Shown here: piece after piece, positions 1-52,939 of the stretch
Numbering within the stretch: position 1 is the first letter of the stretch
Layout: the number at the start of each line of letters is the position of its first letter
Assembly (NCBI GenBank): GCA_017983795.1
Contig: JAGOAS010000009.1
Span: 78,719-142,718 of the forward strand
Direction of reading: 5' to 3'
DNA: 64,000 bases
Source of the DNA: Piscinibacter sp.
Lineage (GTDB): Bacteria; Pseudomonadota; Gammaproteobacteria; Burkholderiales; Burkholderiaceae_C
The notes under the pieces: model-generated
Databases searched by the model: none
The model's input: the letters and a program-made list of their open reading frames with translations, nothing else
Told to the model about the DNA's origin: nothing
Translations under genes and position numbers: made by a program

Positions 1-743
1 AGCTGATCGCCGCCACCGGCGCCGACGAGGAACTGCTCAAGCAGGCGCAGGCGCTGATCGTGGCCTGCGAGCCCAAGCCGGGCCGGCCGTTCGCGCGCGC
101 CGAGGCCAACATCATCGTGCCCGACGTGATCGTGCAGAAGGCCGGGCGCGGCTGGAAGGTGGTGCTGAATCCCGACGTGATGCCGCGGCTGCGCATCAAC
201 GACCTGTACGCCAACGCGATCCGCCAGGGCCGCGGCAACGCCAGCCTGAACGGCGCCGGCGCCGGGCTGAACGCACGCCTGCAGGAGGCGCGCTGGTTCA
301 TGAAGAACATCCTGCAGCGCTTCGACACCATCCAGCGCGTCTCGCAGGCCATCGTCGAGCGCCAGAAGGCCTTCTTCACGCACGGCGAGATCGCGATGAA
401 GCCGCTGGTGCTGCGCGAGATCACCGATGAACTCGGCCTGCACGAATCGACCATCTCGCGCGTGACCACCGCCAAATACATGGCCACGCCCTTCGGCACC
501 TTCGAGCTGAAATATTTCTTCGGCTCCTCGCTGAATACCGATGCCGGCGGCAATGCCTCCAGCACGGCGGTGCGCGCGCTGATCAAGCAGCTGGTGGCGG
601 CCGAGGACGCGAACAAGCCGCTGAGCGACAGCCAGATCTCGCAGATGCTCGAGGAGCAGGGCATCCAGGTGGCGCGGCGCACGGTGGCCAAGTACCGCGA
701 AGCGCTGAAGATCGCGCCCGCCAATCTGCGCAAGGCGATGTAG
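1..743 (+). CDS. rpoN: RNA polymerase sigma-54 factor, C-terminal part (5' end outside window)
   Basis: The frame is open from base 3, so this is the last ~246 residues of a longer protein. Sigma-54 directs RNA polymerase to -24/-12 promoters and needs an AAA+ activator. The diagnostic RpoN box ([10 protein letters not shown]) is encoded at 672-701, close to the C-terminus. It is preceded by a core-binding region and a helix-turn-helix segment ([17 protein letters not shown]). The N-terminal region I is not visible. The stop codon TAG at 741-743 shares its last base with the GTG start of the next gene, so the two are translationally coupled. Identification is firm; only the 5' boundary is missing. 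Confidence 0.97.
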
Positions 744-1969
744 TGCCGCTGCCCCTGTTCCTGCCCTGCGCCGCCGGCGTCGAGGAGTGGCTCGCCGAGG
801 AAGTCGCGCGCGTGCTGCCGCAGGCGCGCGTGCAGACGCGCCGCGGCGGCGTCGCGCTGGAAGGCGATCCGCGCGAGGTGATGCTGCTGAACCTCGAGAG
901 CCGCCTCGCGCAGCGCGTGCTGATCGAGGCCGCCGAAGGCCCCTACCGCGACGAGCACGATCTCTACGCACTGGCGCAGAGCGTCGACTGGCAGCAGTGG
1001 CTGACGCCGCGCCAGACGCTGCGCGTGGACACCACCGCGCAGAAGAGCCCGCTGAAGAGCCTGAACTTCGCCGCGCTGCGCATCAAGGACGCGGTGTGCG
1101 ACCAGCTGCGCGAGGCCACCGGCGAGCGGCCCAGCGTGGACACGCGGCATCCCGACCTGCCCATCCTGCTGCACGTCGGCGCCGAGCGCGCGGCGATCTA
1201 CGTCGACAGTTCGGGCGAACCGCTCTTCAAGCGCGGCTGGCGCGAAGACAAGGGCGATGCGCCGCTGAAGGAGACGCTGGCCGCCGCGATGCTCGCCGCC
1301 GCCGGCTGGCGCGGCACGCCCGAAGCGGGCGGCGCGCTGCACGACCCCTGCTGCGGCTCGGGCACCATCGCCATCGAGGCGGCGCAGATCGCCTGCGGCA
1401 TCGCGCCGGGCCTGCAGCGCCGCTTCGCGTTCGAGCGCCAGCTGCCCTTCACCGGGCCCGACGAACGTGCGCTGTGGCAGCGCCTCAAGGCAGAGGCCAA
1501 GGCGCGCATCCATGCCAGCGCCGTGCCCATCCACGCCAGCGACGTGTCGTTCCGCATGGTCGACTTCGCGCGCCGCAATGCCGAGCGCGCCGGCGTCGCG
1601 GCGGCGATCGAATTCCACGGCGGTGATGCGCTGGAGCGGCCGGCGCCGCTGCTGCCCGAGGGGCTGCCGGGTTGCGTGGTGCTGAACCCGCCCTACGGCG
1701 AGCGCATCGAGGTCGGCGGCAAGGCGGCGCGGCCGTCGGCGCAGGATCGCGACACGCCGAGCGACTTCTTCGCGCGCCTGGCCGCGCACTGGAAGCAGGC
1801 CTACACGCGCCACGCCGCCGGCTGGACGGCCTGGGTGCTCAGCCCCGACATGAAGCTGCCCTCGGCGATGCGGCTCAAGGAAAGCCGCCGCATCCCGATG
1901 TGGAACGGGCCGATCGAATGCCGGCTGTTCCGCTTCGTTCTCACGCAGGGTTCCTACGATAAGAGCTGA
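743..1969 (+). CDS. THUMP-domain class I SAM-dependent RNA methyltransferase, 3' end altered by an insertion
   Basis: 408 residues from a GTG start. A ferredoxin-like/THUMP region covers roughly residues 1-160. The Rossmann methyltransferase follows, with a SAM motif around DPCCGSGT (residues 201-208) and the NPPY motif of base-N-methyltransferases at 315-318. The family includes the RlmL N-terminal half and makes m2G in 23S rRNA, so rRNA is the probable substrate; this is inferred. The last residues after RLFRF (VLTQGSYDKS) come from inserted DNA. The ancestral tail appears at 3608-3673, in the frame that would continue this gene. The catalytic core is untouched, so the protein is probably active. 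Confidence 0.9.
   Translation: MPLPLFLPCAAGVEEWLAEEVARVLPQARVQTRRGGVALEGDPREVMLLNLESRLAQRVLIEAAEGPYRDEHDLYALAQSVDWQQWLTPRQTLRVDTTAQKSPLKSLNFAALRIKDAVCDQLREATGERPSVDTRHPDLPILLHVGAERAAIYVDSSGEPLFKRGWREDKGDAPLKETLAAAMLAAAGWRGTPEAGGALHDPCCGSGTIAIEAAQIACGIAPGLQRRFAFERQLPFTGPDERALWQRLKAEAKARIHASAVPIHASDVSFRMVDFARRNAERAGVAAAIEFHGGDALERPAPLLPEGLPGCVVLNPPYGERIEVGGKAARPSAQDRDTPSDFFARLAAHWKQAYTRHAAGWTAWVLSPDMKLPSAMRLKESRRIPMWNGPIECRLFRFVLTQGSYDKS
1927..1937 (+). repeat. Left 11-bp direct repeat (putative att core)
   Basis: GTTCCGCTTCG, identical to 3607-3617. It lies within codons for LFRF of the methyltransferase. Three of the next four bases also match the right copy (TCT after one mismatch). Confidence 0.65.
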
Positions 1970-2069
1970 TCTCCCACTTTCCCAGGGAAGACATGCACTA
2001 AAGACCCCTCTCAGCTATGTTTGCTGCGTTGTCCGCTAGGGCCAGGGCTGGACGCCCTGAAGGGCATCA

Positions 2070-3083
2070 TCAAGTAGCGGGAGGGGTTGATGCTTCCGGC
2101 TCGCCCTCGGGCGGCGGCTGTTGGGGCAGCATCGCAGGCATGGCAGGAATGACGAGCCCGGGCAATTGCTCTGCATTGGCGGGGTGCCCTTGGATGATCA
2201 TCTGCTGCATCTGGAAGAACGCGACGCCCTTGTGGTTCTCGATCATCTTGAACGCGGCTGTTGCGGCTAGCGTGTGTACACAGGCGTGATGTACCGTCAG
2301 CACGGCATCCTGTAGCTTGGGATCGTCTTCCAGCGCAACCACTTCCAACCCCATGGCCTTGCACTTCGCGGCCGACAGGTGTCGGGCGTGAGACTTCTGC
2401 AGTGCGTGGTCCGACAGTTCGGTGACGATCTCAGCGGCCTTGCCTTGCGGATCAACGTGACCCTGCAGCATGCCTCGGACCAACCACTCCTTGACCATGT
2501 CGTTGGACCACTGAATCGCCTTCTCGCACTCACCGATCAGCGTAGGGTGGTAACGCGCGATGATGGGCTGCCAAATCGGAATCTTGGAGGGGTCAGCCCT
2601 CACCTCATCGACGGCGCGCTTGAACTCTTCCACTACCCCATGAGCCGGCATCGGTCCCAACTGAGGGTCAATGGGTCCAAGACTCGACTGCTTGCCCATG
2701 ATGATCTGCTTGCATGAGCAAGCGATCATGGTCCCCGCCGACATCGCCAACTGGGGAACGATGGCGCGGATGTTCGTCCCGAACATCGAGTGCAGGTAGT
2801 CCACCAGCGACTCGGTGGCCGCTGTCTCCCCGCCTGGGGTGTGCAGGATCAGGTCGAGGCCCTTTGTGCGATCTAAACCGTGGATCACGGTCATGAAGCC
2901 GTTCTTGTCGGCGTCGTTGACCTGCATGCCCGGTATACCGGGCTTCTGGAGCCATCCTGAGTAATACAGGACGACGTTGCGGCCAGTGATCTTGTGGAGT
3001 TTGGCCAGGTACTGTCGGCGGACTACGTCAAACGTGCTGCCCTTGACCTTGATCTCTTCCAGCAGCTGGTGCCAGCTTGGCAT
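2070..3083 (-). CDS. SDH-family Clp-fold serine proteinase
   Basis: 337 residues. This is the serine dehydrogenase proteinase family (ClpP/crotonase fold; related to S49 and NfeD-type proteases). Visible motifs are HTPGG at residues 81-85 (oxyanion region), MSAGT with the likely nucleophile Ser115, and LGPIDPQLG at 135-143. The last ~45 residues are proline-rich and low in complexity. No signal peptide is evident, so a cytoplasmic enzyme is likely; its substrate is unknown. The ATG at 3083 has a good ribosome site (GGAGGGAACCG) and fits the family N-terminus (MPSW). It is the only clear cargo of the insert and is less G+C-rich than its neighbours, consistent with transfer. Confidence 0.85.
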   Translation of the reverse strand: MPSWHQLLEEIKVKGSTFDVVRRQYLAKLHKITGRNVVLYYSGWLQKPGIPGMQVNDADKNGFMTVIHGLDRTKGLDLILHTPGGETAATESLVDYLHSMFGTNIRAIVPQLAMSAGTMIACSCKQIIMGKQSSLGPIDPQLGPMPAHGVVEEFKRAVDEVRADPSKIPIWQPIIARYHPTLIGECEKAIQWSNDMVKEWLVRGMLQGHVDPQGKAAEIVTELSDHALQKSHARHLSAAKCKAMGLEVVALEDDPKLQDAVLTVHHACVHTLAATAAFKMIENHKGVAFFQMQQMIIQGHPANAEQLPGLVIPAMPAMLPQQPPPEGEPEASTPPAT

Positions 3084-3258
3084 CGGTTCCCTCCGGGGCT
3101 GACGAGGTTGATCCTATGTCGAATCGGATCGAGAAATGACGCTCGTCGGGGAGGCCCACTGGCTTCCCCAGGTTACGGAATCGCTGTCGGTCAGCGTCAG
3201 TCCCAAGGCCGAGTTGATCAAACGCAGCCTGAATGCTCTCTTGCGAAGAGGACGGCAT
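3028..3258 (-). CDS. Small hypothetical ORF overlapping the protease start
   Basis: 76 codons beginning MPSSSQESIQAAF. GGAGA lies a few bases upstream of the ATG. It ends 56 bases inside the protease gene in another frame, so it could couple translation to the protease. The first ~45 residues look protein-like and hydrophilic; the end is low in complexity. No family is recognised. It could equally be a decayed gene or chance. Confidence 0.3.
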   Translation of the reverse strand: MPSSSQESIQAAFDQLGLGTDADRQRFRNLGKPVGLPDERHFSIRFDIGSTSSAPEGTDAKLAPAAGRDQGQGQHV

Positions 3259-3606
3259 AGCTGGTCTCCAAGGGTGCGGAACTGTGACACGGGTGGGCGG
3301 CAAACTCCGCCCCGCCAATGGGGGATGGATTTTGCCTTGGCTGGCACGAGTCTTGGCGACCTGAATTGTTTCCACTATGAAGTTCGGCACGGTGAGGGTG
3401 TCGCGGAGCATGAGACACCAACCATGTTGCTGGGCAATGTCTGCACCGTATCCATCCAGGCCTACTGGTGCGCGCCGCCAGCAATGCATCGAGCACGTCG
3501 ATGCCCTAGCTACGGGCCTCTCAACTTCGATGGTCGGAGCGAATAGCGTTCCTAGCCAAAACCTACGAGGACTTGCTAACTCGTTGTCGGGGGTGACGCA
3601 TATATC
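3259..3606. other. Stretch without a recognisable gene inside the insert
   Basis: About 350 bases upstream of the small ORF and the protease, at about 53% G+C in the lines counted. Short open frames exist on both strands, but none resembles a known family or has a convincing start. It may hold the protease promoter or debris of a lost recombination gene. No attC-like or terminal inverted repeat structure was found. Confidence 0.4.
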
Positions 3607-3617
3607 GTTCCGCTTCG
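3607..3617 (+). repeat. Right 11-bp direct repeat (putative att core)
   Basis: GTTCCGCTTCG, the same as 1927-1937 and in the same codon phase relative to the methyltransferase reading frame. G+C content and codon use become native immediately after it. Confidence 0.65.
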
Positions 3618-3673
3618 ATCTGGTGGCCGGCTCGGCGCGCGCGGCCAAGCCGGCCGCCAAGCCGGACAGATAA
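3607..3673 (+). pseudogene. Displaced 3' end of the methyltransferase gene
   Basis: In the methyltransferase phase this reads FRF-DLVAGSARAAKPAAKPDR-stop (TAA 3671-3673). It has the high G+C of the host gene, follows the direct repeat, and has no start of its own. It is interpreted as the original C-terminal 18 codons separated by the insert. An Ala/Lys/Pro-rich tail is ordinary for this family in Burkholderiales (from memory, not searched). Confidence 0.65.
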
Positions 3674-3679
3674 CGCGCT

Positions 3680-4099
3680 TCAGCGGCCGAGCAGCTGCCC
3701 GAGCACCGCACCCACGTCCAGGCCGCCGGCTTGCGGCAGCTGCCCGTTGGGCGTGACGTGGTCGACCACCTGCGGCAGCACCTGGGCGAGCTGCCCCAGC
3801 AGATCGCCGCCGCTCAGGCCGGTGCTGCGCGTGAGATGCGCGAGCACGTCGTCGCCGAGCACGCCGCCGAGCTGATCGGCCGAGACCGGCATGTTCTGGC
3901 CGGTGCCCACCCACGAGCTCATCACGTCGCCGAGGCCGCCCTGCTGGAAGCGCGTCACCAGATCGGCGAGCCCGCCGCCACCGGGCGCGCCGCCCTGGCC
4001 GGCGAGCATGCCGATCACCGCCTGCAGCAGCGCGGCCTGCCCGCCACCGCCCTGGCCGCCTTGGCCGAGTGCGCCGATCACCGAATCGAGAAGACCCAT
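3680..4099 (-). CDS. YidB/DUF937-family protein
   Basis: 139 residues starting MGLLDSVIGAL, with GGAGG upstream of the ATG at 4099. The sequence is Gly/Gln-rich with short hydrophobic helices (LADLVTRFQQGGLGDVMSSWVGTG is the typical core). This is the DUF937 family of which E. coli YidB is a member, and its function is unsettled. There is no signal peptide. It ends 6 bases from the displaced methyltransferase stop, convergent with it, so before the insertion the two genes met tail to tail. Confidence 0.85.
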   Translation of the reverse strand: MGLLDSVIGALGQGGQGGGGQAALLQAVIGMLAGQGGAPGGGGLADLVTRFQQGGLGDVMSSWVGTGQNMPVSADQLGGVLGDDVLAHLTRSTGLSGGDLLGQLAQVLPQVVDHVTPNGQLPQAGGLDVGAVLGQLLGR

Positions 4100-4158
4100 G
4101 TCCGCCTCCGTGTGGGGATGATGAAGTGAAGCGCCCGTGGTGGCGCGGCCCGCGATCA

Positions 4159-4887
4159 TCACTCCGACGCTGCGCCGAGTCGAGCCAGCAGCGCGAGTGG
4201 TGCGGTATCCGCGCGCAGCGTGCGGGGGCCGAGCGACAACGGCGTGAATCCCGCACGGCGCGCCGCGTCTTCCTCGGCTTCGGCCAGGCCGCCTTCGGGG
4301 CCGCTGAGCGAGAGCACGGCGCGCGCATTGCCTGGCTGCAGCGGCGGCAGCGGCTGCGCATCGCGCAGGCTGAGCACGAGGCGTTGTTCATCGCCCGCCG
4401 CCGGCAGCGCGGCCAGCCATTCGCCCAGGCCGCGCACCGACGCGATCTGCGGCACGCGCGTGCGCCCGCTCTGCTCGCAGGCCGCCACCGCCACCGCCTG
4501 CCAGTGCGCCACCTTCTTGTGCGCGCGTTCGCCGGCCAGGCGCAGCACCGAGCGCTCGCAGACCAGCGGCTGGATCGCTGCCACGCCGAGCTCGCAGGCC
4601 TTCTCCACCAGCGCATCCATGCGTTCGTTGGCCGGCATGCCGACGGCCAGCGTCACGGCCAGCGGCAGCTCGCGCGAGACGTCGACGAAAGCGTCGATCT
4701 GCACGCGCACCTCGCGCCGGCCCATCAGCAGAACCTGCGCGGCCCATTCGCCGCCGCGGCCGTCGAACAGCGTCAGTGCATCGCCCGGCTGCAGGCGCAG
4801 CACCTGCACGTGGCGCGATGCGCCTTCGGGCAACTCGATCTCGGTGCCGGCGGCGAGCGGAAACGGAACGTGGAAACGGGGCGGCAC
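4159..4887 (-). CDS. rsmE: 16S rRNA (uracil-1498-N3)-methyltransferase
   Basis: 242 residues from a GTG start (MPPRFHVPFPLAAG). An N-terminal PUA-like domain (RHVQVLRLQPGDALTLFDGRGG) precedes a SPOUT knot domain with MDALVEKACELGV, QPLVCERSV and the SAM-binding knot motif LSGPEGGL near the C-terminus. It methylates U1498 in the decoding region of 16S rRNA. Length matches the family. The GTG was chosen because upstream residues are low in complexity and the family starts with M-P-R-F/H. The gene lies between yidB-like and a membrane-protein gene on the same strand. Confidence 0.93.
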   Translation of the reverse strand: MPPRFHVPFPLAAGTEIELPEGASRHVQVLRLQPGDALTLFDGRGGEWAAQVLLMGRREVRVQIDAFVDVSRELPLAVTLAVGMPANERMDALVEKACELGVAAIQPLVCERSVLRLAGERAHKKVAHWQAVAVAACEQSGRTRVPQIASVRGLGEWLAALPAAGDEQRLVLSLRDAQPLPPLQPGNARAVLSLSGPEGGLAEAEEDAARRAGFTPLSLGPRTLRADTAPLALLARLGAASE

Positions 4888-4940
4888 GGCAGGTCTTCGA
4901 GCGGCGAGGCCTGCAGTGTGCCGCAGCGCCCGCGACACCC

Positions 4941-5441
4941 TCAGCGCCCGTCGCGCCGCCAGGCCATGCGCCAGCGACGCGCAAGCGCGCGCACGCGCCG
5001 CCACGGCGCCCAGGCCTGCAGCGCATCGCGCACGCGCTGCTTGGTGCGGCGCCACCAGGCCAGCGCCGCGGCGAACCAGGAAAACTGCGTGAGCTGCGCT
5101 TCGGTGAGGATGAAGAGCCGCCCCACCAGCGCGGTGCCGAGCAGCTTGGCCGCGACGATCACCGCCACGCCGAGCAAGGCCTGGCCCTGGTGGATGGCCC
5201 ACAGCGCGAGCAGCTTGATCGGAAACAGCGCCGCCGCCGGCACCAGGAAGAGCGCCAGCGCCACGCGCGGCGAGGCGCGCTGGATGCGTGCTTCCAGGCG
5301 CGCCAGCGGCGGCCACTGCGCCAGCCGCGCCGCCCAGGCGGTGAGCGGCCGCCAGCCCCATTCCTCGATGAAGAGGACGACCGCCGCCAGCGCCAGCAGC
5401 ACGCCGCGCAGGACACGCGCGAGCCCCCTCAGCGGATTCAC
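4941..5441 (-). CDS. Hypothetical inner-membrane protein
   Basis: 166 residues from a GTG at 5441 that overlaps the TGA of the nucleosidase gene (GTGA). Three hydrophobic segments are visible: VLLALAAVVLFIEEWGW near the N-terminus, VALALFLVPAAALFPIKLLALW, and GVAVIVAAKLLGTALVGRLFIL. A basic, Trp-rich tail follows. No enzymatic motif is seen. I know similar unnamed membrane proteins in Burkholderiales, but no function. The 4-base overlap suggests co-translation with the nucleosidase. Confidence 0.7.
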   Translation of the reverse strand: MNPLRGLARVLRGVLLALAAVVLFIEEWGWRPLTAWAARLAQWPPLARLEARIQRASPRVALALFLVPAAALFPIKLLALWAIHQGQALLGVAVIVAAKLLGTALVGRLFILTEAQLTQFSWFAAALAWWRRTKQRVRDALQAWAPWRRVRALARRWRMAWRRDGR

Positions 5442-6196
5442 TCGACCGCGCCCGACATCCAGGTGGCGAGGATCTCGCGCGTGTAGACGCTCGCCACGTC
5501 GACGATGAAGCGGTTGAAGTCGACGTGGGCGCTGTCGTCGGCGCGGTCGGAGACGGTGCGGATCACCGCGAAGGGCCGGCCGAAATCGGCGCACACCTGG
5601 GCCAGCGCCGCGCCCTCCATCTCCACCGCCAGCGCGTCGGGCAACGCGGCGCGCAGCGCTTCGCTCTCGGCGGCGGTGGCGACGAAGCGATCGCCGCTGA
5701 CCACCAGGCCCTGGTGCAGCAGCGGGCTGTCGATGCCGAAGTCGGCCAGGTGCGTCTCGCCAATGCGCTCGGCCGCGTGCTGCAGGCAGTGCAGCGCGGC
5801 GCTGGCCAGCGCCGCGCTCAGGTCGGGGTCGGTGGGAAAGCGCGAGCGGCCGGTCAGCGGCACCTCGAAGCGCGGGAACAGCGGCGAGGCATCCATGTCG
5901 TGCTGCAGCAGCTCGCGCGCCACCACCACGTCGCCCACGCGCACGCCGGGCCCGAGGCCGCCGGCCGCGCCGGTGAAGACGATGCGCTGCACGTCGATCT
6001 CCTGCAGCAGCAGCGTCGCGGTGGTGGCGGCGGCCACCTTGCCGATGCCCGACAGGGTCATGACCACCGGCTGCCCTTCCATCGTGCCGATGTGGAAGGT
6101 GCGGCCGGCGAAGGTGGCGCTCTGGTGCTTGTCCAGCGCCGGCAACAGGGCACGCAGCTCCTGGTGCATGGCGCTGACGATGGCGATGCGGCTCAT
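5438..6196 (-). CDS. mtnN: 5'-methylthioadenosine/S-adenosylhomocysteine nucleosidase
   Basis: 252 residues starting MSRIAIVSAMHQEL. It hydrolyses MTA and SAH to adenine plus the thioribose product, recycling SAM by-products. Recognisable family features are the N-terminal Glu in SAMHQEL, the nucleobase/ribose segment VEMEGAALAQV and the catalytic Asp in RTVSDRADD. These correspond to Glu12, Glu174 and Asp197 of E. coli Pfs by motif position. About 20 residues longer than the E. coli enzyme. Upstream lie two large hairpins (6231-6417) that separate it from the fadD-like gene. Confidence 0.9.
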   Translation of the reverse strand: MSRIAIVSAMHQELRALLPALDKHQSATFAGRTFHIGTMEGQPVVMTLSGIGKVAAATTATLLLQEIDVQRIVFTGAAGGLGPGVRVGDVVVARELLQHDMDASPLFPRFEVPLTGRSRFPTDPDLSAALASAALHCLQHAAERIGETHLADFGIDSPLLHQGLVVSGDRFVATAAESEALRAALPDALAVEMEGAALAQVCADFGRPFAVIRTVSDRADDSAHVDFNRFIVDVASVYTREILATWMSGAVE

Positions 6197-6230
6197 GGCG
6201 TCAGTGTGGCATGGAGCAGGGTGTGGAGCG

Positions 6231-6303
6231 GGGCACGGGGCGGGCAGGCCGGGCTGCGCGCGGCCCGATATCCGTGCTCGCCCGGCCTGCCCGCCCCGTG
6301 CCC
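6231..6303. repeat. Large hairpin repeat, copy 1 (24-bp perfect stem)
   Basis: Arms 6231-6254 and 6280-6303 are perfect reverse complements over 24 bases. The loop is 25 bases, 6255-6279. Read on the minus strand the loop begins GAGCACGGATATCGGG and is 23/25 identical to the loop of copy 2. It lies between the 5' end of the nucleosidase gene and the 3' end of the fadD-like gene. Confidence 0.85.
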
Positions 6304-6346
6304 AGCCACCATCGGCGCTCGCGCTCGAGATGCTCGGTGATTCCAC

Positions 6347-6417
6347 GGCGAGGCCGGGGCCTGCCGGTCGAGCACCGATATCGGGCGGCGCGCAGACCGG
6401 CAGGCCTCGGCCTCGCC
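6347..6417. repeat. Large hairpin repeat, copy 2 (22/23-bp stem, opposite orientation)
   Basis: Arms 6347-6369 and 6395-6417 pair at 22 of 23 positions. Loop 6370-6394 begins GAGCACCGATATCGGG. Compared with copy 1 the loop differs at two positions only (G to C at loop position 7, C to G at 18), while the stem sequence is different but still paired. The copies are 43 bases apart in inverted orientation. Confidence 0.85.
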
Positions 6418-6456
6418 GCGCTCAGTGGAGAACGAACTCAGCGCACCGCGCCCGAC

Positions 6457-8127
6457 TCACTTCCCGCGCAGCTCCCGCCTCAGGATCTTGCCCACCGGCG
6501 TCTTGGGCAGCTCGGTGCGGAACTCCACCACCTTGGGCCGCTTGTAGCCGGTCAGGTTGGCCTCGCAGAAGGCGCGCACGTCGGCCTCGGTGACGGCCGG
6601 GTTCTTCTTGACGATCACCAGCTTCACCGCCTCGCCCGCCTTCTCGTCGGGGATACCGACCGCGGCGCATTCGAGGATGCCGTCCATCTGCGTCATCACG
6701 TCCTCGACCTCGTTCGGGTAGACGTTGAAGCCGCTCACCAGGATCATGTCCTTCTTGCGGTCGACGATGCGGAAGTAGCCGCGCTCGTCGACCATGCCGA
6801 CGTCGCCGGTGCGGAAGAAGCCGTCGGCCGTCATCACCTTGGCGGTCTCGTCGGGGCGCTGCCAGTAGCCGGCCATCACCTGCGGCCCGCGGATGGCGAT
6901 CTCGCCGGCCTGGCCCGGGCCGACCTCGCGGCCGTCGTCGTCGAGCAGCGTCAGCTCGGTATTGGGCATGGGCAGGCCGATGTTGCCGCTGAAGGCGGTG
7001 CTGTCCACCGGGTTGCAGGTGGCCGAGGGCGAGGTCTCCGAGAGGCCGTAGCCCTCCACGATCGGGCAGCCGGTCTTCTCCAGCCACAGCTTGGCGGTGG
7101 CGCTCTGCACCGCCATGCCGCCGCCCACCGAGATCACCAGGCTGCTCCAGTCCACCGTGCCGAACTCGGCGTGGTTGGCCATCGCCATGAACAGCGTGTT
7201 GACGGCCGGGAAGCTGTGGAACTTCTCGCGCGCCAGATCCTTGAACATCGCCGGCAGGTCACGCGGATTGGCGATCAGGATGTTGCAGCCGCCCATGCGC
7301 ATGGACAGCATCATGTTCGTGTTGAAGCCGAAGATGTGGTACAGCGGCAGCGCGCAGACGGTGACGATCTGCTCGCCCTTGGGAATCTTCTTCAGCGCCG
7401 GCTGGTACCAGGCCTCCGACTGCAGGATGTTGGCGACGAGGCAACGATGCAGCAGCACCGCGCCCTTGCTGACGCCGGTGGTGCCGCCGGTGTACTGCAG
7501 CACGGCGATGTCGTCCGGGCCCACCGGCGCGGGCGTGAAGGTCTTGCCCGCGCCCTGCGAGAGCGCGTCGTTGAAGCGCACGGCGCCGGGCAGCTCGTAG
7601 GCCGGCACCATCTTCTTCACCTTGCGCACCACGTAGTTGACGATCAGCGACTTGGGGAACCCGAGCATGTCGCCCAGCGCGGTGAGGATGACCTTCTTGG
7701 TCGGCACCGCGCTCATCACCTGCTGCAGCACGTGGGCGAAGTTCTCGACGATGAGGATGGCCTTGGCGCCGGAGTCCTTCAGCTGGTGCTCGAGTTCGCG
7801 CGGCGTATACAGCGGGTTGACGTTGACCACCACGTAGCCGGCGCGCAGCACCGCCGCCACCGCCACCGGGTACTGCGGGATGTTGGGCAGCATGATGGCC
7901 ACGCGGTCGCCCTTGGCCAGGCCGAGCGATTGCAGGTAGGCGGCGAGCGCGCGCGAAGCCTGGTCGAGCTGCGCGAAGCTGATCGCCTTGCCCATGAACT
8001 TGTAGGCGGGCAGCGAGGCGTACTTCTTCAGGCTGTCCTCCAGCAGCGCCACCAGCGAGGGGTACTGGTCGACGTCGATGTTCGCCGGCACGCCTGCGGG
8101 GTACTGCTTCAGCCAGATCTTTTCCAT
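6457..8127 (-). CDS. fadD: Long-chain fatty acid--CoA ligase
   Basis: 556 residues, close to E. coli FadD (561). An adenylate-forming enzyme that activates fatty acids to acyl-CoA via acyl-AMP. Motifs: YTGGTTGVSKGA (P-loop, about residues 206-217), GYGLSETSP (about 357-365), and the hinge/C-terminal motif RIVDRKKDMILVSGFNVYPN (about 445-465), followed by the catalytic Lys region KTPVGKILRREL. The ATG at 8127 has AGGAGA upstream. It is divergent from the GntR-type regulator. The regulator's operator at 8275-8285 lies about 150 bases upstream of this start, so shared control is possible but unproven. Confidence 0.93.
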   Translation of the reverse strand: MEKIWLKQYPAGVPANIDVDQYPSLVALLEDSLKKYASLPAYKFMGKAISFAQLDQASRALAAYLQSLGLAKGDRVAIMLPNIPQYPVAVAAVLRAGYVVVNVNPLYTPRELEHQLKDSGAKAILIVENFAHVLQQVMSAVPTKKVILTALGDMLGFPKSLIVNYVVRKVKKMVPAYELPGAVRFNDALSQGAGKTFTPAPVGPDDIAVLQYTGGTTGVSKGAVLLHRCLVANILQSEAWYQPALKKIPKGEQIVTVCALPLYHIFGFNTNMMLSMRMGGCNILIANPRDLPAMFKDLAREKFHSFPAVNTLFMAMANHAEFGTVDWSSLVISVGGGMAVQSATAKLWLEKTGCPIVEGYGLSETSPSATCNPVDSTAFSGNIGLPMPNTELTLLDDDGREVGPGQAGEIAIRGPQVMAGYWQRPDETAKVMTADGFFRTGDVGMVDERGYFRIVDRKKDMILVSGFNVYPNEVEDVMTQMDGILECAAVGIPDEKAGEAVKLVIVKKNPAVTEADVRAFCEANLTGYKRPKVVEFRTELPKTPVGKILRRELRGK

Positions 8128-8270
8128 TGGTTTGGTTCTCCTTGGACCATCGGAGATTTTCCCCCACGCCCCGGAGCACCCCCCTCAGGTTTTTCGATAG
8201 CGGCTCCGTCGCGTCCGTGACCCGGGTATTCCCGGCGTTGAGCCGGCTGCGGCCGACGCCTATCCTCACG

Positions 8271-8293
8271 GAATTGGTCAGACCACTTGACCG
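8271..8293. promoter_or_regulatory. Probable FCD-GntR operator, copy 1
   Basis: The palindrome TGGTCAGACCA lies at 8275-8285, the layout typical of FadR/UxuR-type regulators. It overlaps a second dyad, GGTCA-N7-TGACC. The whole 23-base block recurs unchanged at 16689-16711 upstream of manD. It sits 20 bases before the regulator start, so autoregulation is likely. Confidence 0.75.
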
Positions 8294-8312
8294 CCCGCCT
8301 CCGCGCCCCCGC

Positions 8313-9056
8313 ATGCCGCTGCAGCCCCTCTTACCGCGCCGCCTCTATCGCCAGATCGCCGAGCAGCTGCGCGCGCTGATCGAGCACGGCGAGTTCCCGG
8401 CCGGCACGCGGCTGCCGCCGGAGCGCGATCTCGCGGTGCAGCTCGGCGTCTCGCGCCCCTCGGTGCGCGAGGCGCTGATCGCGCTCGAAGTGGAAGGCCG
8501 CGTCGAGGTGCGCATGGGTTCGGGCATCTACGTGCGCGAGGCACCGATGCGCGCGGCAGCGGTCGAGCACGAGGCCGAGAGCCCGCTGGAGACGATCCGC
8601 GCGCGTGCACTCATCGAAGGCGAGCTCGCCGCCGTGGCGGCGCGCCAGATGAAGCGCGCGCAGATCAGCGGCCTGCGCGAGGCGATCGCGCTGATGGTGC
8701 AGGAGTCCGCTGCCGGGCAGATGCCGACGCAGGGCGATCGGCTCTTCCACACCCGCATCGCCGAGGCGAGCGAGAACTCGGTGCTGCTGCGCGTGGTCAG
8801 CGGCCTCTTCGACGAGCGCCACAACCCGCTGTTCGCGCAGCTCGGCAGCCACTTCGAGACGGCGCGCAGCTGGGCCGCGGCGATCGAGGAACACAAGGCG
8901 GTGGTCGACGCGATCGCACACCAGGATCCGGCGGCCGCGCGCGAGGCGATGGTGCGCCACCTCGCCAACTCGCATGAGCGCTTCATGGCGAGCTGGCAGG
9001 CCGAAGGCGAGACGCCGGCCAAGCCGCCCGCACGCAAGAAGAGAGTCACCACATGA
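8313..9056 (+). CDS. FadR/GntR-family (FCD) transcriptional regulator of the sugar-acid cluster
   Basis: 247 residues. A winged helix covers roughly residues 8-75 (LYRQIAEQLRALIEHGEF, then RLPPERDLAVQLGVSRPSVREAL, then MGSGIYV). An all-helical FCD ligand domain follows, about 95-235, with the metal/ligand-binding type pattern RLFHTRIAEAS and a later EHKAVVDAI. Regulators of this subclass (UxuR, ExuR, LldR) bind sugar acids or hydroxy acids. It overlaps the dehydrogenase gene downstream by 4 bases (ATGA). The start at 8313 was chosen because it begins just ahead of the winged helix and the operator lies immediately before it. The likely inducer is a hexonate/hexuronate, which is inference. Confidence 0.88.
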   Translation: MPLQPLLPRRLYRQIAEQLRALIEHGEFPAGTRLPPERDLAVQLGVSRPSVREALIALEVEGRVEVRMGSGIYVREAPMRAAAVEHEAESPLETIRARALIEGELAAVAARQMKRAQISGLREAIALMVQESAAGQMPTQGDRLFHTRIAEASENSVLLRVVSGLFDERHNPLFAQLGSHFETARSWAAAIEEHKAVVDAIAHQDPAAAREAMVRHLANSHERFMASWQAEGETPAKPPARKKRVTT

Positions 9057-10090
9057 CGACCACGACGACGGCCTGCCGCATCCACGCCGCGCGCGACCTG
9101 CGCCTGGAGGACGTCGCCCTGCCCGAGCTCGGAGCGCACGACGTGCAGATGAAGCTGGGCGCGGGCGGCATCTGCGGCTCCGACCTGCACTACTTCGGCC
9201 ACGGCCGTGTCGGCGCCTTCGTGATCCGCGAGCCGCTGGTGCCGGGGCACGAGGCCTCGGGCATCGTCGAGCGCATCGGCAGTGCGGTCACGCGCGTCAA
9301 GCCGGGCGACAAGGTGGCGGTGAACCCCTCGCACGCCTGCGGGCGCTGCGACTACTGCCTGGGCGGGCGCTTCAACCTGTGCCGCAGCATGTTCTTCCTC
9401 GGCAGCGCCAGCGTATTCCCGCACGCGCAAGGCCTGTTCCGCCGGCAGTTCGTGCTCGGCGAAGCGCAGCTCACGCCGGTGCACGAGGACATCTCGCTCG
9501 GCGAGCTGGCCTGTGCCGAGCCGCTGTCGATCGGCCTGCACGCCGTGCACCGCGCCGGCGATCTGGTCGGCAAGACGGTGCTGGTCACCGGCGGCGGCAC
9601 GATCGGCTGCATGAGCGTGATCGCCGCGCGCCTGGCCGGCGCGGCCGAGGTGATCGTGTGCGATATCGCCGAGCGGCCGCTGGCGATCGCGGCGCAGGTC
9701 GGCGCCGACCGCACGATCCGCAGCGACCAGGTCGACGCGGCCAGCCTCGCCGACAGCGCCGACATCGCCATCGAAGCCGCCGGCAGCCCGGCGGCGCTCG
9801 CTACCTGCCTCACGGCGACGCGGCGCGGCGGGCGCATCGTGCAGGTCGGCACGCTGCCGGCCGAGGGCCTGCCCTTTCCGGCCAACAGCATCATGGCGCG
9901 CGAGCTCGACTATGTCGGCGCCTTCCGCGCCGCGCACGCCTTCGACTGGGCGGTGCGCTACCTGCGCACACGGCGCGTCGACGTGCGCCCGCTGCTCTCC
10001 GCGCAGCTGCCGATTTCGCGCGCCCACGAAGCCTTCGAACTCGCCGCCGACCGCAGCCGCAGCACCAAGGTGCAGCTGGTGGACGATTGA
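9053..10090 (+). CDS. Zinc-dependent alcohol dehydrogenase, L-idonate 5-dehydrogenase type
   Basis: 345 residues. Medium-chain dehydrogenase with catalytic-zinc residues in GICGSDLHYFGHG and GHEASG, a structural-zinc run CGRCDYC...NLC, and a Rossmann motif VTGGGTIGC near the middle. It most resembles L-idonate 5-dehydrogenase, which oxidises L-idonate to 5-keto-D-gluconate; sorbitol/threonine-type dehydrogenases are alternatives. It is translationally coupled to the regulator upstream and followed 43 bases later by the TRAP transporter, consistent with oxidation of an imported sugar acid. Confidence 0.82.
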   Translation: MTTTTTACRIHAARDLRLEDVALPELGAHDVQMKLGAGGICGSDLHYFGHGRVGAFVIREPLVPGHEASGIVERIGSAVTRVKPGDKVAVNPSHACGRCDYCLGGRFNLCRSMFFLGSASVFPHAQGLFRRQFVLGEAQLTPVHEDISLGELACAEPLSIGLHAVHRAGDLVGKTVLVTGGGTIGCMSVIAARLAGAAEVIVCDIAERPLAIAAQVGADRTIRSDQVDAASLADSADIAIEAAGSPAALATCLTATRRGGRIVQVGTLPAEGLPFPANSIMARELDYVGAFRAAHAFDWAVRYLRTRRVDVRPLLSAQLPISRAHEAFELAADRSRSTKVQLVDD

Positions 10091-52331: not shown

Positions 52332-52754
52332 TCACTTCAGGTGGGCGTTGACGTACTTCGTCAGCTCGAACATCGACACCTGAGCCTGCTTGGTGACTTC
52401 CTTCAGCTTGGCGTCGGCGTTGATCAGCGTGCGCTTGATCTTGTCCTGCAGGCCGTGCTTCTTGATGTACTCCCAGACCTTCTTGGTCACCTCGGTGCGC
52501 GGCAGCGGCTTGTCGCCGATGATCGCGGCCAGGGCCGAGCTCGGGGTCATCGGCTTGAGGAACGCGGCGTTCGGGGTGCGCTTCTTGGCCGGAGCCTTCT
52601 TCGCAGCGGCCTTCTTCGCCGGAGCCTTCTTGGCCGGAGCGGCCTTCTTCGCCGGGGCCTTCTTGGCCGGGGCCTTCTTCGCCGGTGCCGCCTTCTTGGC
52701 CGGGGCCTTCTTCGCCGCCGCCTTTTTGGCGGGAGCCTTCTTCGCAGTTGCCAT
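52332..52754 (-). CDS. SWIB/MDM2-domain protein with histone H1-like Lys/Ala tail
   Basis: 140 residues. Residues 1-58 are almost entirely K, A and P in PAKKA-type repeats, like eukaryotic H1 tails and bacterial HctB/AlgP-type proteins. Residues ~60-138 form a SWIB domain (FLKPMTPSSALAAIIGDKPL, PRTEVTKKVWEYIKKHGLQD, LINADAKLKEV, SMFELTKYVNAHLK). Probably a nucleoid protein using the tail for DNA binding. The repeat region (52580-52750) is prone to length variation. The gene has its own terminator. Confidence 0.9.
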   Translation of the reverse strand: MATAKKAPAKKAAAKKAPAKKAAPAKKAPAKKAPAKKAAPAKKAPAKKAAAKKAPAKKRTPNAAFLKPMTPSSALAAIIGDKPLPRTEVTKKVWEYIKKHGLQDKIKRTLINADAKLKEVTKQAQVSMFELTKYVNAHLK

Positions 52755-52939
52755 GTTGATTCACTCCATCAAAAGTCTGATTGATGTGCCCGGGATGGGC
52801 GAGGTTCGCGTGGAACCTCATTTCTCCATAGCACCGTGCGGAGCGAATGGTATAGCGTCACTGCTGCATTGAGAAGCAGTTTTCGCTCGTGGCGCGTTGA
52901 TCTTGTCGAGGGAAAGCGCGCATTTGTCGCGCTCACACG

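Follow-up and report, generated by a model that had tools for sequence, protein, structure and literature searches.

A 1.68-kb insert carrying an SDH-family protease gene and a small overlapping gene at the 3′ end of an rlmL-type methyltransferase gene

SCCmec inserts at the 3′ end of rlmH, and islands of this kind leave a direct repeat, a substitute end for the target gene and a displaced native end. CIMEs and prophage remnants are att-flanked remnants without an integrase. The island SGI1 lies at the 3′ end of trmE, according to a published account (PMC8409611). Here we describe a much smaller insert, found in a window of 64,000 nucleotides (the whole stretch of DNA that was analysed), at the 3′ end of a gene for an RlmL-type RNA methyltransferase. 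The features of the locus are as follows.

743..1969, plus strand: gene for an RlmL-type THUMP-domain RNA methyltransferase (UPF0020, THUMP and RlmL_1st Pfam matches over cut-off)
1927..1937, plus strand: left copy of the 11-bp direct repeat, attL-like (from the sequence)
1938..3606, no strand: the inserted DNA itself, 1669 bp without the repeats (59.4% G+C; 50 of 54 genomes show an unbroken native end)
2070..3083, minus strand: gene for an SDH-family (ClpP-fold) serine protease of 337 aa (PF01972, PHROG 11747)
3028..3258, minus strand: small gene of 76 codons (overlaps the protease start by 56 nt; has a counterpart at the closest relative, locus L061; position conserved)
3259..3606, no strand: 348 bp upstream of the gene pair, featureless in Pfam, PADLOC, phage DNA, Rfam and promoter scans
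3607..3617, plus strand: right copy of the 11-bp direct repeat, attR-like (from the sequence)
3607..3673, plus strand: displaced native 3′ end of the methyltransferase gene with its own stop codon (FRFDLVAGSARAAKPAAKPDR, then stop; continuous with the gene in relatives)

The insert and its direct repeat

The 11-bp sequence GTTCCGCTTCG is present twice, at positions 1927-1937 and 3607-3617 of the window. The two copies are spaced by 1680 bp, a multiple of three, and both have an offset of 2 from the gene start at 743, in agreement with the preliminary description, which had placed a direct repeat in the same codon phase at both ends; the match between the copies extends to 14 of 15 bases. In this frame the left copy is read as FRF-VLTQGSYDKS followed by a stop codon, the final codons of the methyltransferase gene (1938-1969) being derived from the insert, whereas the right copy is read as FRF-DLVAGSARAAKPAAKPDR followed by a stop codon. 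Reading 3607-3673 bore out the claim that the native C-terminal codons resume after the right copy. The DNA between the repeats is likewise poorer in G+C, as had been noted, with a fraction of 0.594 as against 0.710 to the left (1-1926) and 0.715 to the right (3618-8000). The best NCBIfam match of the methyltransferase itself was RlmKL, which fell below cut-off (308.6 versus 466 bits).

To compare the locus with relatives lacking the insert, as the preliminary description had proposed, we read the 3′ ends of the 54 best-scoring methyltransferase loci, one per genome, which are not a random draw. An end was counted as continuous if it showed FRF or a like triplet, then D, E or N, and then L or M. 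By this measure the native end was uninterrupted in 50 of the 54 genomes; the outcome named in the preliminary description as a refutation, a natural ending in VLTQGSYDKS, thus did not appear. The four exceptions were the window's own genome, in which the end is interrupted, and G005, G019 and G024. In G005 the DNA of the end is continuous and shorter by one base, hence frameshifted. The tail of G019 is divergent, and the following 18.5 kb contain no second copy resembling the core. The split methyltransferase of G024, with its halves 3.3 Mb apart (L097 and L098), was dropped, being a product of N gaps and a join in a one-contig scaffold. The methyltransferase gene of G007 (92% identical) shows no difference over the stretch that spans the junction, from CTGTTCCGCTTCG through GGCGCGCGC. 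From the continuity of the native end in relatives and this identity across the junction, the insert evidently entered an intact gene and is a real gain in the lineage of the window.

The 11-mer is not rare by itself: it occurs 22 times in the 4.24-Mb genome (both copies in the window counted), as compared to 6 occurrences of its reversed control. Chance does not account for its placement exactly at both junctions of an insert that was delimited independently by comparison with relatives.

No recombinase or integrase, nor a relic of an integrase, was recognised among the three ORFs of the insert scanned with Pfam, a result that upholds the earlier claim of an insert without a recombinase. A search of the insert for a tRNA found none. 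The stretch upstream of the gene pair was similarly bare: a Pfam scan of the two ORFs that overlap 3259-3606 gave no match, PADLOC gave only a weak one (E 0.061), an Rfam scan covering the stretch gave none, no sigma-70-like promoter was found there, and comparison of 3084-3617 with phage DNA gave no match. Elsewhere in the window, at 52542-52760, we noted a repeat array with 15/18-bp spacing, which probably belongs to the gene for a Lys/Ala/Pro-rich histone-H1-like protein.

The protease, its small partner gene and their relatives

That the insert carries an SDH-family protease was confirmed by a score of 74.5 bits against SDH_protease PF01972 (cut-off 31.3) and by a match to PHROG 11747 (E 1.1e-93). 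The protein scored far under the cut-off of NF047768, the SDH family Clp fold serine proteinase equivalog (84.9 bits; cut-off 250), and below that of ClpP PF00574 (15.1 bits; cut-off 20.2). Its predicted structure (pLDDT 86.8, pTM 0.82) resembles ClpP in fold; the best 50 PDB matches were 12-18% identical with low query TM values of 0.31-0.39, and among predicted viral proteins the best resemblance was to 'serine dehydrogenase proteinases' of giant viruses. Ser115, the predicted nucleophile, is invariant across 33 protease sequences and aligns with the serine of a ClpP chain, a residue that we take to be the ClpP nucleophile. Also invariant in the 33 sequences are H81, C186, H232, H235, H265 and H266, among which the other catalytic residues may lie. 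The protease had no match to the defence models of PADLOC up to E 0.1. Among the papers listed by a literature search, none was by title and abstract about this protease in bacteria, and two passages of PMC8541194 do not discuss it.

The preliminary description implied a cargo of a single gene, and here it fell short, having missed the 76-codon gene that overlaps the start of the protease gene. Both genes are oriented against the methyltransferase gene. The small protein is 52% identical to its counterpart at L061 (pS 0.68, pN 0.30), and its predicted structure, two helices with a pTM of 0.34, is uninformative. A small ORF ending at the protease start (at least 50 aa, with its end within -30 to +60 nt of that start) was present at 39 of 41 loci, as compared to 4.7 expected from block shuffles. 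The two loci without one were L082 and L161, the latter having an annotated small gene further upstream. The small proteins fall into a first group with weak similarity to the window's copy (15-52%) and a second, prophage group with a conserved QLY(S/T)Y tail, of which the member at L168 is PHROG 25714. No homology was detectable between the two groups (A3 and A4; hhalign probability 4.2), and hence the small gene is a partner by position in the second group and by sequence as well only in the first. Because the small gene overlaps the protease gene, in temperate phages and elsewhere, the arrangement suggests a translationally coupled pair, in which the small protein might inhibit, activate or guide the protease.

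Relatives of the protease are widely scattered. We found 25 genome loci with 41-83% identity, which the records assign to very different phyla, as well as relatives on eight IMG/VR contigs and, at E 1e-5, matches in seven phage and 37 plasmid records. Nearer to the window they are sparse: within its order, five of 399 genomes (own genome excluded) have a relative that is at least 45% identical along most of the protein, and within its family only G463 (51%) and G538 (40%), besides the own genome, match over most of the length at 40% identity or more.

In temperate phages the relatives occupy the accessory positions expected of a prophage moron. The best plasmid match, CP137442.1, is deposited as a plasmid but, to judge by its gene table, appears to be a complete temperate phage; its protease gene is flanked on one side by genes located after the tape-measure gene and on the other by those for integrase/excisionase. 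In a Mu-like phage the relative lies between C and the lysozyme gene, another lies between an antitermination and a holin gene, that of a Porphyromonas phage adjoins hicAB, and that of Gordonia phage BeeGee lies between tail and integrase genes. In a phage-like plasmid of Enterobacter (NZ_CP083847.1, L158; a match joined from three pieces), the protease is broken after 94 codons. The closest relative of all, at L061 (83% identical), lies with a few ORFs between fliL and a fliK-like gene (fliK judged by eye) at 6596-9896, in a flagellar cluster; these two genes are presumably neighbors as a rule, in which case the protease locus of L061 would also be a small insert. A 250-aa ORF upstream of the pair at L061 has an RNxxxH motif and no Pfam match.

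Around the relatives we found 175 neighboring ORFs, of which 105 were scanned. These matched 82 Pfam families; the 25 listed were for the most part housekeeping or phage families that occurred once each, while N6_N4 DNA methylases were matched by three and Dam by two of the 105 ORFs. The ORFs also matched 121 PADLOC models, the 25 listed all being methyltransferases. A defence-island setting thus found no support in the Pfam and PADLOC matches of the 105 ORFs.

Origin of the insert

Other genomes hint at earlier recombination at this gene end. In G012 and G728, which belong to other genera, the methyltransferase gene end recurs 66 bp downstream of its first copy (L171, G012:C1 about 377222-377311; L172, G728:C420 about 6284-6373). 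The second end begins with TGCCG(G/C)CTGTTCCGCTTCGA, starts right after a substitute stop codon and runs to a stop codon of its own. The two ends of G728 are, by eye, identical over 41 bases and then diverge, which is unlike a plain tandem duplication, and the event looks recent, since three sampled congeners (G498, G594 and G785) have a single copy. The tandem ends resemble what would be left by integration and loss, possibly the scar of an element, and suggest repeated recombination at this gene end. Matches to a gene-end pattern came from 279 of 399 genomes, with two copies at the locus only in G012 and G728, and those to a native-end pattern from 129 of 389 family genomes, with two copies only in G728. 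In the other two-copy genomes (G433, G437, G516, G619, G746, G014, G657, G776 and G509), the second match lay elsewhere in the genome.

A larger element at the site did not appear in these pattern scans, which pass over elements that bring an unlike gene end and cover the gene end, not integrases beside the gene. Nor was one seen in the downstream stretches of 18 relatives, which were searched for the gene end and the next conserved genes, not for integrases. In three genomes with unusual tails (G019, G022 and G031), a second core of the gene end was absent from the next 18 kb or so, and exact searches of IMG/VR for the gene end and for the left junction were negative.

The best explanation, to which we give an even chance, is that a larger prophage or island, integrated site-specifically, has lost its integrase and left this insert as a remnant in which a phage-borne two-gene module survives. 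A crossover within GTTCCGCTTCG in the 3′ part of the methyltransferase gene, probably catalysed by a tyrosine recombinase, would have brought in the formerly larger element; integration would have given the methyltransferase ten substitute last codons and moved the native end 1.68 kb downstream; and an internal deletion would then have left only the cargo, the small protein and the SDH/ClpP-fold serine protease. The pair would be an accessory (moron) module of a prophage, most likely directed against the host or rival phages, in which the small protein would be the translationally coupled partner of the protease. This account is favored because the relatives of the protease are cargo of temperate phages, and it is supported by the direct repeat at a conserved gene 3′ end, as in islands that use such targets. 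It is weakened in that no integrase or relic of one was recognised in the insert and no larger element was seen in the relatives scanned, and by the shortness of the repeat (11 bp).

A second account, which we consider unlikely, is that a linear foreign fragment was joined by chance, 11 bp being duplicated in an illegitimate or microhomology-driven recombination event. The insert has no mobility gene and no terminal inverted repeat and is present in one copy, and no larger element was seen at the site in relatives, all of which would fit; but the duplication is perfect and sits at a conserved gene end, with no native base lost. A perfect duplication of 11 bp exceeds usual microhomology.

Somewhat less probable still is a minimal non-autonomous integrative element, in which the 1.68-kb unit itself would be mobile, a tyrosine recombinase supplied in trans from another element recognising the 11-bp core and excising and inserting the unit. 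The compactness of the insert and its two clean ends speak for it, as do the setting of L061 and the ten tyrosine-recombinase matches in the genome, nine of them over cut-off. Against it, no second copy of the insert was found in the same genome, and the protease is matched at E 1e-10 in only seven of 329 family genomes (own included). Moreover, an attP resembling the joined ends of the insert was not found at the ten integrase loci in a test for the exact 11-mer only: within about 1.5 kb on each side the 11-mer occurred once, at L153, where 20 of 56 bases were identical to the joined ends, as compared to 18-25 of 56 at the eight other 11-mer places compared. Together with the temperate-phage setting of the protease relatives, the single copy and the lack of an attP-like 11-mer at these loci favor a remnant over mobilisation in trans. 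The preliminary description had offered both a shrunken island and a non-autonomous element; its compact, foreign, att-flanked insert stands, and of the two the shrunken island appears the likelier.

We regard as very improbable a transposon-type element (a mobile insertion cassette or MITE-like element) with an 11-bp target duplication. Some IS families produce duplications of about this length, with which the repeat is compatible, but the outer 60 bases contain no terminal inverted repeats: their local score of 5 compares with a shuffled mean of 6.87 and is reached by 99.8% of 2000 shuffles. The least probable account of all is an integron gene cassette at a secondary site, placed by the genome's own integron-type integrase, for although contig 37 encodes an IntI-like integrase (L148, G000:C37:2097-2762), which from its motifs we take to be IntI, and the cut can be read as G^TT, no attC was found at the ends by simple consensus (no RYYYAAC...GTTRRRY pair) or by folding (z 0.34 for one and -0.97 for the other, the latter equalled by 27 of 200 shuffles), and the protease gene is oriented away from the better-folding end. 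The integrase-like gene at L148 has a proline-rich stretch inside.

Function and comparison with known systems

The phage context makes a defence role for the pair plausible, whereas the neighboring genes and PADLOC lend it no support. A more specific and rather improbable proposal is that the two genes make up a self-contained, translationally coupled system of inhibitor or sensor and protease effector; phages would carry it as cargo, it would also travel as a minimal cassette without an integrase, cleanly inserted into gene ends, and it would guard its carrier against other phages. If the pair did serve defence or host takeover, it would represent a new enzymatic type among prophage cargo. 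The insert also shows how small an att-flanked insert can be with its cargo looking intact, and it draws attention to an uncharacterised protease pair spread over many phyla and phages.

Att-flanked remnants are already a known kind, of which this insert is a new member, at a target not found among the open-access papers listed, which by title and abstract named no rlmL-type insertion site. Papers on morons, cassettes and CIMEs offered only background of a general kind. Like islands of the SGI1 and SCCmec type, the insert lies at the 3′ end of an RNA-modification gene and has a direct repeat, a substitute end and a displaced native end; unlike them, it is only 1.68 kb long, is without a recombinase and has an rlmL-type target. 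It shares with CIMEs and prophage remnants two att-like ends and a cargo without an integrase, but no autonomous parent was found at its site in the relatives scanned by gene-end pattern. The protease resembles the SDH-type ClpP-fold proteases of PHROG 11747 and PF01972 in its family match, conserved serine and phage context, and differs in scoring far below the cut-off of the NCBIfam equivalog and in being paired with a small upstream gene. Finally, the pair lies outside any recognisable prophage, unlike prophage morons, but, like them, has relatives in accessory positions beside int or lysis genes.
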